From: Rhodohalobacter sulfatireducens
GTDB lineage: Bacteria > Bacteroidota > Rhodothermia > Balneolales > Balneolaceae
Direction: 5' to 3'
Assembly (NCBI RefSeq): GCF_022012475.1
Contig: NZ_JAKLWS010000027.1
Span: 1-64,000 of the forward strand
Length of the DNA stretch: 64,000 nt
The notes beneath the pieces are model-generated. The model searched no databases and was not told the origin of the DNA. It saw only the letters and a list, made by a program, of their open reading frames with translations. This document shows positions 13,121-16,017 of the stretch, piece after piece. Position 1 is the first letter of the stretch; every line of letters starts with the position of its first letter. The position numbers and the translations under genes are program-made.

Positions 13121-14599
13121 ATGAATAACATAAACAGCTACAGGGTTTTTGAACAAAATGAAAAAGAGGTAAAAAACGAGAGAGATTACGTACTCTACTG
13201 GATGCAGAGTACTCGCAGGTTTCATTATAATTTTGCACTTGAATATGCAGTCAGCTGGGCAAATAAACTCAACAAACCGCTATTGATTTACGAGGCTTTT
13301 TCTTGCCAATACAGGTGGGCAACGGATCGCTCTCATACATTCATGATGCAGGGGATGAAAGAGCATCTTGATATTGCGGCAAAAAAAGACCTGAACTATA
13401 TTTCATTTTGTGAAAGAGAACCCGGTCAAATTGATGAGATGTTCATGAATCTGAGTGAACGGGCTTCTCTTGTTATATCTGATGAATATCCCATCTTTAT
13501 CATCAATAAAAGCAATCAAAAATATTCACAAAAGGTTGATGTTTCTTATATCACGGTAGATAGTAATGGAATCATTCCGCTGGGCATAACGGATAAAGAT
13601 CCCTACAGTGCATATTTCTTCAGGAAAACGATGCAGAAGCAGTTTGTGGAAGCTTATACTCATCCCCCGAGACAGAACCCCCTGGAAGATTTAGAAAACG
13701 ACAATGAGATTGAATCGCTCTCCGGTGTAGTGAATCAGTTTCCCGATGGAAAAAAAGCTTTAGAGGATATACCAACATTTATTAATACTCTTGATATCAA
13801 TCATTCAGTGCAACCGATTGAGTGGGAAGGTACAAGGCAGGCAGGTTTGGGGATGTTAGGGCAGTTCATACAATATGGTTTAATGGACTATAGTGAGAAA
13901 CGGAATGACCCCGATGAGAATAAGACGAGCCATTTAAGTCCATGGCTGCATTTTGGTAAAATCTCGCCATTTGAGATTGTTCGGGCCATATTTGAACATC
14001 AGCCTGAAGGTTGGAGCCTGGATAAGATTACTTACAACAAGGGATCAACCGGTGGATTTTTTAATGGAAATCCAGAAATTGCAGATTTCTTGGACGAACT
14101 AATAACCTGGAGAGAGGTGGGGTTTCATTTTGCGCACCATCGACCGGATTATGATAAGTTTGAAAGTTTACCCGACTGGGCATTGAAAACTATGAATGAA
14201 CATCGTGATGATCCAAGGGAATGGACCTATTCATACCAGGAGTTTGCCGAGGCTAAAACGCATGATGAATTATGGAATGCAGCACAAAGACAGCTGCGGC
14301 AGGAAGGAATTATACACAATTACCTGAGGATGTTATGGGGAAAGAAAGTTATTGAGTGGACACCGGATCCTGAAACTGCTTTAGAATATCTTATTGACCT
14401 GAATAATACGTATGCAATTGATGGTCGGGACCCAAACAGTTATTCGGGTATATTTTGGTGTTTTGGCCGATTTGACCGTGCCTGGCAGGAGAGACCGATA
14501 TTTGGAAAACTCCGGTACATGACGAGTAAAAGTACCCGGAAAAAAGTAAAACTCTCTCAATATTTAGATAAGTACGGTGACCAGAAATCCTTATTGTAA
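13121..14599 (+). CDS. phr: Class II CPD photolyase
   Basis: The 492-residue flavoprotein repairs cyclobutane pyrimidine dimers with light. The N-terminal alpha/beta domain opens VLYWMQSTRRFHYNFALEYA, typical of class II rather than class I enzymes. The FAD-binding helical domain ends with RMLWGKKVIEW, the segment from DPETALEYLIDLNNTYAIDG, DPNSYSG and WQERPIFGKLRYM, which are class II signatures. The Arg-Asp pair contacting FAD lies in DGRDPNSY. A classical FAD domain is complete and there is no truncation. It is followed by the SatD/DUF3307 pair on the same strand. Its stop codon lies inside the left arm of that pair's inverted-repeat promoter. Confidence 0.9.
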   Translation: MNNINSYRVFEQNEKEVKNERDYVLYWMQSTRRFHYNFALEYAVSWANKLNKPLLIYEAFSCQYRWATDRSHTFMMQGMKEHLDIAAKKDLNYISFCEREPGQIDEMFMNLSERASLVISDEYPIFIINKSNQKYSQKVDVSYITVDSNGIIPLGITDKDPYSAYFFRKTMQKQFVEAYTHPPRQNPLEDLENDNEIESLSGVVNQFPDGKKALEDIPTFINTLDINHSVQPIEWEGTRQAGLGMLGQFIQYGLMDYSEKRNDPDENKTSHLSPWLHFGKISPFEIVRAIFEHQPEGWSLDKITYNKGSTGGFFNGNPEIADFLDELITWREVGFHFAHHRPDYDKFESLPDWALKTMNEHRDDPREWTYSYQEFAEAKTHDELWNAAQRQLRQEGIIHNYLRMLWGKKVIEWTPDPETALEYLIDLNNTYAIDGRDPNSYSGIFWCFGRFDRAWQERPIFGKLRYMTSKSTRKKVKLSQYLDKYGDQKSLL

Positions 14600-14679
14600 T
14601 ATCGTCTTTATTACCGATAAATAATAAATATCGGTATAAAAATCGATAATTTGAAAATATCGGTAATAAAGGCGATATT
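14598..14679. promoter_or_regulatory. 22-bp inverted repeat with TATCGGTA sites, probable operator
   Basis: A 22-base arm at 14598-14619 and its reverse complement at 14658-14679 match at 21 of 22 positions, and the one mismatch is a G-T pair. The gap between them carries a further TATCGGTA (14629-14636) and ATCGAT (14642-14647). The TACCGATA/TATCGGTA cores are centred near 14615.5, 14632.5 and 14661.5, with ATCGAT centred near 14644.5. The steps are 17, 12 and 17 bp. The element covers all the space between the photolyase stop and the SatD start. It is probably an operator array for an autoregulator. SatD itself ends in a helix-turn-helix. A role as a photolyase terminator is also possible. 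Confidence 0.65.
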
Positions 14680-14685
14680 GAATAT

Positions 14686-15315
14686 ATGAAAACTACAATT
14701 ACAGGTGATATCGTCCATTCACAATCTGTAGAGGATCCCAAATTGTGGCTCGATCCTTTAAAAAATCTCTTTAATACCTTTGGGGATTCACCAAAAACCT
14801 GGGAAATCTACAGGGGAGACAGTTTTCAAATTTCTGTTCCTGCAGAAGATTCTCTGCGGGTTGCTATTCTAATTAAATCGGTTATCAAAAAGCAGAAGAA
14901 AAAAAAGCTTGATGTAAGGCTTGCACTGGGTATTGGCAAAGATGATACCTACGTAAACAGGGTAAGCGAAGCTGCCGGAGAAGCTTTTGTATATTCCGGT
15001 CAATTGTTAGATACTCTGAAAGAGAAAAAAGTACATCTTGGGGTAAAATCTCCCTGGGATGATTTTGATAAAGAGTTTAACATGATGTTTAAGTTAGCCC
15101 TTGTCATTATGAATTCATGGACAAGTAATTCAGCCGAAGTCGCAGAACTGTTGTTCAGCGAATCAGAAATTACCCAGGTAGAAATTGCAGAACATCTTGG
15201 AATTGTCCAATCATCCGTGAATGATAGAATAAAAAGAGGCGCTATTTATGAAATTATGGAGATGGAAAAATATTTTCGCGAAAGAATTCAAATCCAAATT
15301 TCCCGGAGCTTTTAA
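14686..15315 (+). CDS. SatD family protein with C-terminal helix-turn-helix
   Basis: The 209-residue protein opens with ITGDIVHSQ (D8), then carries WEIYRGDSFQI (G44-D45), DVRLALGIG (76-84) and RVSEAAGEAF (92-101). This is the SatD family pattern. The D-I, later G-D and the VR-x-x-x-G-x-G strand recall class III nucleotide cyclases, so a cyclase-like palm fold is a reasonable inference, not an established fact. The C-terminus has a helix-turn-helix (about 160-185: QVEIAEHLGIVQSSVNDRIK). SatD was named in streptococci for a role in acid tolerance and secretion. It starts at ATG 14686, directly after the inverted repeat, and its stop abuts the DUF3307 start with no gap, so the two are cotranscribed. 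Confidence 0.8.
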   Translation: MKTTITGDIVHSQSVEDPKLWLDPLKNLFNTFGDSPKTWEIYRGDSFQISVPAEDSLRVAILIKSVIKKQKKKKLDVRLALGIGKDDTYVNRVSEAAGEAFVYSGQLLDTLKEKKVHLGVKSPWDDFDKEFNMMFKLALVIMNSWTSNSAEVAELLFSESEITQVEIAEHLGIVQSSVNDRIKRGAIYEIMEMEKYFRERIQIQISRSF

Positions 15316-16017
15316 ATGATCTTGGTAAAGCTAATTTTAGCGCACATAATTGGCGATTTCTTTCTTCAAAGAGGCAAATGGATTGAGAGCAAAGAGAGAA
15401 AAAAATGGTCTTCACCCCACCTGTTCTTACATGTTTTTATACATTTTGCTTTAATGCTTCTCATTCTGTGGGATCTCAGCGTATTACCAATCATTCTACT
15501 GATTACATTTCTTCATTATATTATTGATGGATGTAAACTCACATTTCAAACAGAAAAAACCAGAGAACTGTGGTTTGCAGTTGATCAGGTTGCACATTTC
15601 CTGGTACTGGTTGCTGCATGGTTTTTTTATTGGGGTGGTGGAGATATCAGCGGTTTCAGCGATCAGTTTTGGATTATGCTGACCGGCCTACTGTTTTTAA
15701 CCTACCCGGCGTCCTATTTCATGCAGCATTTGATGGCCTCATGGAGCGAACAGATTGATTCCGGTGAAAAAGAATCGCTTCAAGGAGCGGGAAAATATAT
15801 AGGAATGTTGGAGAGGATATTTGTTTACTTGTCTTTGATAACAGGAAACGCGCAGGTGATAGGTTTTTTATTGGCCGCAAAGTCTGTTTTCCGGTTTGGG
15901 GATCTAACACGATCTAAAGACAGGAAATTGACCGAATATATTTTGATAGGAACTCTTTTTAGTTTTTTGATGGCAATAATCGTCGGTCTGCTGACGACCA
16001 GACTTTCCTTTTTCTGA
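15316..16017 (+). CDS. DUF3307 membrane protein, partner of SatD
   Basis: This is a 233-residue polytopic membrane protein. The N-terminal LAHIIGDFFLQRGKWIESKE and then LHYIIDGCKLTFQ match DUF3307. Hydrophobic segments lie at about 1-15, 36-66, 88-108, 119-138, 170-190 and 208-230. The acidic and His residues in the first helices (H9, D13, and the later HYIID) are conserved in the family as I know it, but no activity has been assigned. ATG follows the SatD stop codon without a spacer, indicating translational coupling. It converges on the minus-strand purine nucleoside phosphorylase gene with only 5 bases between stops. Confidence 0.8.
   Translation: MILVKLILAHIIGDFFLQRGKWIESKERKKWSSPHLFLHVFIHFALMLLILWDLSVLPIILLITFLHYIIDGCKLTFQTEKTRELWFAVDQVAHFLVLVAAWFFYWGGGDISGFSDQFWIMLTGLLFLTYPASYFMQHLMASWSEQIDSGEKESLQGAGKYIGMLERIFVYLSLITGNAQVIGFLLAAKSVFRFGDLTRSKDRKLTEYILIGTLFSFLMAIIVGLLTTRLSFF

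Follow-up and report, generated by a model that had tools for sequence, protein, structure and literature searches.

The 64,000-nt stretch of Rhodohalobacter sulfatireducens DNA analysed here (hereafter the window; contig NZ_JAKLWS010000027.1, positions 1 to 64,000) contains satD and, on the same strand, a gene coding for a membrane protein with a DUF3307 domain, preceded by an array of palindromes. An initial annotation of this sequence had interpreted the two genes as a possible cyclase-like sensor with a membrane effector and a built-in operator. In agreement with that annotation, the TAA stop codon of satD at 15313-15315 is immediately followed by the ATG of the DUF3307 open reading frame (ORF) at 15316. 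The features of the locus are:

14600..14619, no strand: operator palindrome 1, TATCG-N10-CGATA (exact motif match)
14629..14648, no strand: operator palindrome 2, 29 bp further (exact motif match)
14658..14677, no strand: operator palindrome 3, another 29 bp further; 8 bp separate its end from the satD start codon (exact motif match)
14686..15315, plus strand: satD, ATG ORF, 209 amino acids (aa) (Pfam family match)
14686..15060, plus strand: predicted palm (nucleotidyl-cyclase-like) domain, SatD residues 1-125 (model, fold matches, profile homology)
14707-14709, plus strand: codon of SatD D8, metal-aspartate position by profile alignment
14818-14820, plus strand: codon of SatD D45, metal-aspartate position by profile alignment
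15163..15243, plus strand: helix-turn-helix (HTH), SatD residues 160-186, with recognition helix 175-184 (Pfam, model, covariation)
15316..16017, plus strand: gene of the DUF3307 membrane partner, 233 aa (ORF, Pfam, model)
15319..15636, plus strand: DUF3307 domain, exchangeable N-terminal part of the partner (Pfam, alignment)
15778..16014, plus strand: conserved C-terminal membrane domain of SatD partners (alignment; G163, E166, R167, K189, R193, Y208, G212, S216)

The satD product belongs to family PF16264 (SatD) by its Pfam match (E 1.2e-8; 35.3 bits, cut-off 29), and HTH_24 matches residues 155-184 (E 3.8e-5), where the initial annotation had placed a C-terminal HTH. The family takes its name from the Streptococcus mutans sat operon. 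The outline of a palm domain followed by an HTH is common to 29 aligned members; the subtype of the window scores low in Pfam, which missed nine of its relatives. Partners that follow SatD in relatives are of type A (with DUF3307, approximately 235 aa), type B (approximately 245 aa, without a DUF3307 match) or type C (approximately 106-111 aa), and the letters are used below for the respective loci.

A model of SatD, generated with AlphaFold2 from an alignment of 65 type-A SatD rows (of 81, the window protein included), reached a predicted local distance difference test score (pLDDT) of 96.0 and a predicted template modelling score (pTM) of 0.92. It follows the palm-domain order of strands and helices up to about residue 121, after which come helices that include the HTH. 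The top rows of a Foldseek search of the PDB were Cas10, GGDEF, class III cyclases, a cUMP synthase and GTP cyclohydrolase III (best match: E 2.1e-3, probability 0.99); small ferredoxin-like proteins (Cas2 type, SP2199) were also among the 50 rows. Comparison by VIA yielded Z 9.4 for GTP cyclohydrolase III (2.9 Å, 109 residues), 9.3 for Rv1625c (2.6 Å, 120 residues), 9.3 for Cmr2 (3ung; 2.7 Å, 111 residues) and 8.8 for the GGDEF domain of DosC (3.2 Å, 118 residues). These scores are moderate, and a fold in common is no proof of function; the predicted fold is of the class III cyclase/GGDEF type which the initial annotation had anticipated.

Comparison of SatD with a profile of 30 class III cyclase domains from relatives resulted in a probability of 86-89% and scores of 39.0-40.0. 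Control scores were lower: none of 60 column shuffles exceeded 17.2, the reversed alignment reached 12.6, and an unrelated alignment, that of the partner, reached 14.2. The motifs D8-I9, G44-D45 and DVRLALGIG, which the initial annotation had likened to the metal aspartates and the VR strand of class III cyclases, are all present, and the profile alignment places D8 opposite the first metal aspartate, G44-D45 opposite the GD hairpin and DVR opposite the PIR strand. In palm fold, metal aspartates and profile homology, SatD thus resembles the class III nucleotide cyclases, including PycC of Pycsar; unlike these, it has a fused HTH, and the transition-state Asn/Arg pair is replaced (GEAFVYSG stands opposite GANVNIASR). 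Because this pair is absent, the window SatD is not classed as a class III cyclase, any nucleotide-synthesis activity being putative. SatD proteins of types B and C have AR near the place of the pair, a candidate counterpart of the class III Arg only. A sequence search of the PDB with SatD returned nothing at E up to 1, a PDB search with the SatD profile A1 returned HTH proteins and chance rows only, no PADLOC model of a defence system matched at E up to 1, and GGDEF was not detected in 21 relatives at E up to 1e-10.

Both D8 and D45, on which the cyclase-like interpretation of the initial annotation hinged, are retained in 98 of 102 distinct SatD proteins that were collected by profile without a motif filter. 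Their conservation is judged by this count because the 101-locus type-A set was picked by a GD-x-F type pattern, so that the invariance of G44, D45, F47 and Q48 in that set is partly built in. Among the four exceptions, the N-terminus of L197 is odd, a contig end truncates L051, L207 is sigma-factor-like, and L188 (L188:650-1276, minus strand), a partner-less relative, has lost both aspartates. The partner-less SatD proteins L190 and L193 retain both.

The conserved aspartates, together with the fold in common with Cas10, GGDEF, class III cyclases and a cUMP synthase, raise the question of whether SatD is an active nucleotide cyclase or polymerase. Its product would then gate the partner, with the HTH only setting the dose, in the way in which OptS holds OptE off in Panoptes; as far as the available part of PMC12657218 describes it, the product of a palm protein (OptS, mCpol) holds a membrane effector (OptE) off in that system, which demonstrates that such restraint logic exists. 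The order of a synthase gene followed by a membrane effector gene is as in Panoptes. The missing Asn/Arg pair argues against this explanation, as does the partner, for which Pfam, PHROG and PADLOC revealed no cyclic-nucleotide sensor domain; moreover, an HTH is not part of OptS in that description. We therefore regard an active cyclase as improbable.

The repeat upstream of satD is well beyond chance. The 22-bp inverted repeat noted in the initial annotation does exist, its 22-nt arms (14598-14619 and 14658-14679) differing at one position, but the annotation under-described it, the arms being the outer pair of three 20-bp palindromes. In the whole genome, TATCG-N10-CGATA occurs 12 times (control pattern: four times), and 29-bp-spaced sites are confined to the three of the window and one pair on contig 52. 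Upstream regions of 101 distinct type-A loci contain 334 20-mers with 5/5 complementary ends, as compared to a shuffle mean of 46. A palindrome pair 28-31 bp apart is found in 72 of the 101 regions (50 shuffles: mean 0.44, maximum 2), and 147 of the 155 pairs within 26-33 bp are spaced by 28 or 29 bp. These counts support the built-in operator proposed in the initial annotation.

Among 80 named loci, which together span 480,510 bp, 53 have the array at satD, and a single pair is located elsewhere; this pair (L086:4943-4990) is located about 600 bp downstream of a DUF3307 gene. When 28 genomes of the genus were scanned with up to two mismatches, the 29-bp array was found in 14, each of which has a type-A pair, and in none of the 13 genomes without the pair. 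The fifteenth genome with a type-A pair (G022) has an array with 28-bp spacing. Arrays also precede satD of Vibrio, Pseudoalteromonas and Halorientalis. A generic array rule applied to 57 loci, mostly of types B and C, gave nine positives against a mean of 0.63 and a maximum of 2 in 30 pair-block shuffles; several of the nine are AT-rich and weak, and AACC/GGTT palindromes visible in type-B upstream regions were missed by the rule, so that this result carries little weight for such loci.

The half-site letters vary by genus (TATCG, TATTAC, TATTAG, TATCTG, TATCAC/T, TATAAG and others), and residue 180 of the predicted recognition helix tracks them, by sequence comparison, as they change between genera. 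From 105 type-A SatD proteins, 82 with classable half-sites were obtained, of which 78 remained after removal of identical ones and 67 after a cut at 85% identity. In these 67, Q180 goes with half-sites ending in AG in 11 of 11 cases from several families (Balneolales, Chryseobacterium, Algibacter-type), R180 with TATTAC/T in 8 of 9, and D/E180 with TATCG in 24 of 30. Among columns with entropy > 1, adjusted mutual information with the half-site was highest for residues 176, 189, 180 and 177; residues 119 and 24 came next. With palm distance controlled for, a partial Mantel test gave 0.286 for helix 174-184, where permutations reached no more than 0.121; the values were 0.013 for residues 160-172 and 0.18 for the last helix. 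For a probable link between SatD and the array, we give the repeated Q180/AG pairing more weight than the partial Mantel test.

In 79 of the 80 named loci a partner with DUF3307 and C-terminal motifs is directly downstream of satD, and the remaining locus ends at a contig edge. A sample of 247 Bacteroidota genomes contains 64 DUF3307 rows, with SatD upstream on the same strand in 60; the exceptions are G309, G182, G135 (different contigs) and G020 (decayed). Conversely, 88 of the 97 SatD rows of this sample have a partner, with DUF3307 in 60 and with another C-terminal-domain partner in 28, while the other nine comprise four without or with a broken partner, two at contig ends, two pieces of one broken SatD and one sigma-factor-like protein (G248). 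Thirty of 98 close relatives, the genome under study included, have DUF3307, in 18 cases beside a Pfam SatD match and in nine beside a SatD missed by Pfam; in the rest, the gene is near a contig end (G089), decayed (G020) or without SatD in sight (G077). The coupling claimed by the initial annotation therefore stands for the Bacteroidota, to which the 60 of 64 refers, but not as a fixed pair, since DUF3307 elsewhere also occurs apart from Pfam-detectable SatD: the control genomes of Synechococcus elongatus and Bacteroides ihuae have DUF3307 without a Pfam SatD match, and a DUF3307 gene is listed in a jumbo-phage gene table, as far as that source was accessible.

Other phyla were sampled through plasmid records and two Kangiella loci. 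Neighbours were inspected for six plasmid hits. Plasmids of Vibrio, Segatella, Pseudoalteromonas and Halorientalis, a haloarchaeon, carry the SatD-DUF3307 pair; on those of Agrobacterium and Sphingomonas, the partner that accompanies SatD is short. At the Agrobacterium locus (L152, plasmid pAt), satD and the short partner frame adjoin DUF4365, antitoxin and nucleotidyltransferase-HEPN genes, a defence-like setting. Phage records contained no match to type-A SatD, type-B SatD or the DUF3307 partner. A contig of a viral collection (L286:4983-6373) carries the pair between frames that, by eye, resemble phage structural genes and a SusD-like gene. The genome under study has a second SatD pair (C50, L001:1480-2447) with a 106-aa minimal membrane partner and a 4-nt overlap; the genes that follow it are presumably Phd- and RelE-type toxin-antitoxin genes.

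What the partners share is the C-terminal part. PF11750 (DUF3307) matches residues 2-107 of the window protein (E 4.7e-28). An alignment of 15 partners, some of them from alphaproteobacteria and haloarchaea, shows that the residues invariant past the start are those listed above (numbering of the window protein), all within its final 75 residues. Comparison of the sequences thus indicates that the constant part is a C-terminal membrane domain, for which no Pfam model scored above its cut-off, and that DUF3307 is an exchangeable head. Invariant residues of DUF3307 (45 rows) include H10/D14, H39/H43, H67/D71 and D90/H94, which suggests a possible metal site. Prompted by these pairs, we compared DUF3307 with the YdjM membrane hydrolases (PF04307); a relationship was unsupported (profile score 13.0, shuffle maximum 18.7). 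The partner model (pLDDT 90.7) had no clear fold match, the best values (Foldseek E 0.86; VIA Z 7.2) being within chance level for helical bundles.

We tentatively propose, with a probability of about 45%, that SatD and DUF3307 form a two-gene, self-regulated switch, in which SatD is a nucleotide-sensing autorepressor that restrains the membrane partner in an antitoxin-like manner. SatD would bind the three-palindrome array at its own promoter via the HTH and repress the operon, a step well supported by anatomy and covariation. The palm domain may bind a metal-nucleotide at D8/D45, in which case its role would chiefly be sensing and not catalysis of the classical class III cyclase kind. The partner, whose constant C-terminal domain goes with SatD, would be the output membrane protein, held low or off by SatD at the promoter and perhaps also by contact. 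Loss of SatD would be harmful as long as the output gene is present, and a change in the sensed nucleotide would release the output. Whereas the anatomy of the module (palm and HTH, own-promoter array, operon coupling, conserved partner domain) is clear from the sequence, we infer its function, namely autorepression, sensing and restraint.

According to the part of PMC11323703 that was available, no accessory gene of Streptococcus pyogenes other than a satD-annotated one, present in 178 of 249 genomes, ranks in the top quarter by essentiality score. Indirectly, an accessory yet essential satD fits restraint of a partner, as do loci L199 and L030, where SatD is intact and the adjacent partner gene is broken; a broken SatD beside an intact partner was not seen, the numbers being tiny. 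The pair resembles autoregulated toxin-antitoxin operons in having the regulator gene first, an abutting or overlapping second gene and promoter palindromes, i.e. an own-promoter operator apparently tied to the regulator, and probably also in the essential yet accessory gene of S. pyogenes; it differs in the palm domain of the regulator and in the membrane nature of the partner, toxicity being putative here.

Several observations weigh against a SatD-restrained switch. Partner-like proteins occur without a detected SatD (G182, G309, L063), and SatD occurs without any partner in sight (G281, G300 C122). No PDB structure matched the SatD model with E < 0.001 in Foldseek. In the partial Mantel test, a palm window starting at residue 15 scores up to 0.32 and thus outscores the recognition helix, which means that ancestry is not fully removed. 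Finally, a partner next to satD of S. pyogenes (SPy1171) is an assumption.

Alternatively, SatD might be a conventional regulator that responds to nucleotides or stress and controls a membrane transporter or enzyme of use to the cell, without toxicity or a role in defence. The stable chromosomal place of the pair in the genus, between photolyase and nucleoside phosphorylase genes and unlike an island, would fit such a role, as would the enzyme-like invariant His/Asp pairs of DUF3307 and the link of sat genes to acid tolerance in S. mutans, as cited in the accessible text of PMC11323703. Since the patchy occurrence of the type-A pair (15 of 28 genomes of the genus) and the essential yet accessory satD fit a restrained harmful partner better, we consider an ordinary regulator somewhat unlikely.

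The pair resembles Panoptes in the predicted palm fold of the first gene product, the membrane protein encoded by the second gene and the proposed restraint of the second by the first; it differs in the HTH and promoter array and in a partner without a match to a beta-barrel sensor domain. It seems rather doubtful that SatD and its partners constitute a widespread bacterial and archaeal guard system, in which the palm protein makes or holds a nucleotide that silences the membrane effector. If so, stripping the nucleotide or lifting SatD from the array would free the effector. The logic would then be like that of Panoptes but built on a protein that binds DNA, with an operator code that drifts and a membrane domain that is new.

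The literature searched names SatD and DUF3307 as families but describes no mechanism for either, most listings of "SatD" having other meanings. The traces found were the phage gene table, a Fusobacterium annotation paper and the S. pyogenes study (PMC11323703). A limited search found no description of the palm/cyclase relation of SatD, the operator array or the partner domain. The pair appears to be a widespread two-gene switch that has hardly been described, in which the operator code drifts and the partner contains a new domain. If SatD and DUF3307 are treated as a single module, two unknowns become a switch that can be tested, and the essentiality of an accessory satD in S. pyogenes gains a possible reason. 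This view also delimits a membrane domain not covered by Pfam and supplies operator arrays that vary naturally along with their recognition helices.

The gene upstream of the array (window 13121-14599) is photolyase-like. Its Pfam scores stay slightly below the thresholds, with 25.9 of 27 bits for FAD_binding_7 and 15.6 of 26.6 bits for DNA_photolyase, so that it is, by sequence, a divergent family member. The location of the pair beside this gene had led the initial annotation to consider a link to DNA damage; the gene order of the genus, photolyase - satD - DUF3307 - nucleoside phosphorylase, speaks for such a link. At the photolyase-phosphorylase place of one genome (L064, G020), only a decayed DUF3307 remnant without SatD is found. 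Within flanks of approximately 1-3 kb, a photolyase accompanies 25 SatD loci, all of them in this genus or in a second genus from its family, and no locus from another family has one, so that the neighbourhood reflects synteny within one family. In addition, where three genomes of the genus have an extra array, it is located 3' of a lipoprotein gene and not at a repair gene. A DNA-damage response involving the pair and the photolyase is therefore extremely unlikely. These solo arrays, which are satD-free and follow lipoprotein genes with a similar start, might represent additional targets of SatD, decoys or remnants; an ECF-type sigma gene is also in view at two of the three loci:

L151:2488-2536: solo array, genome under study (C52:59487-59535)
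L254:1984-2032: solo array
L255:2054-2102: solo array

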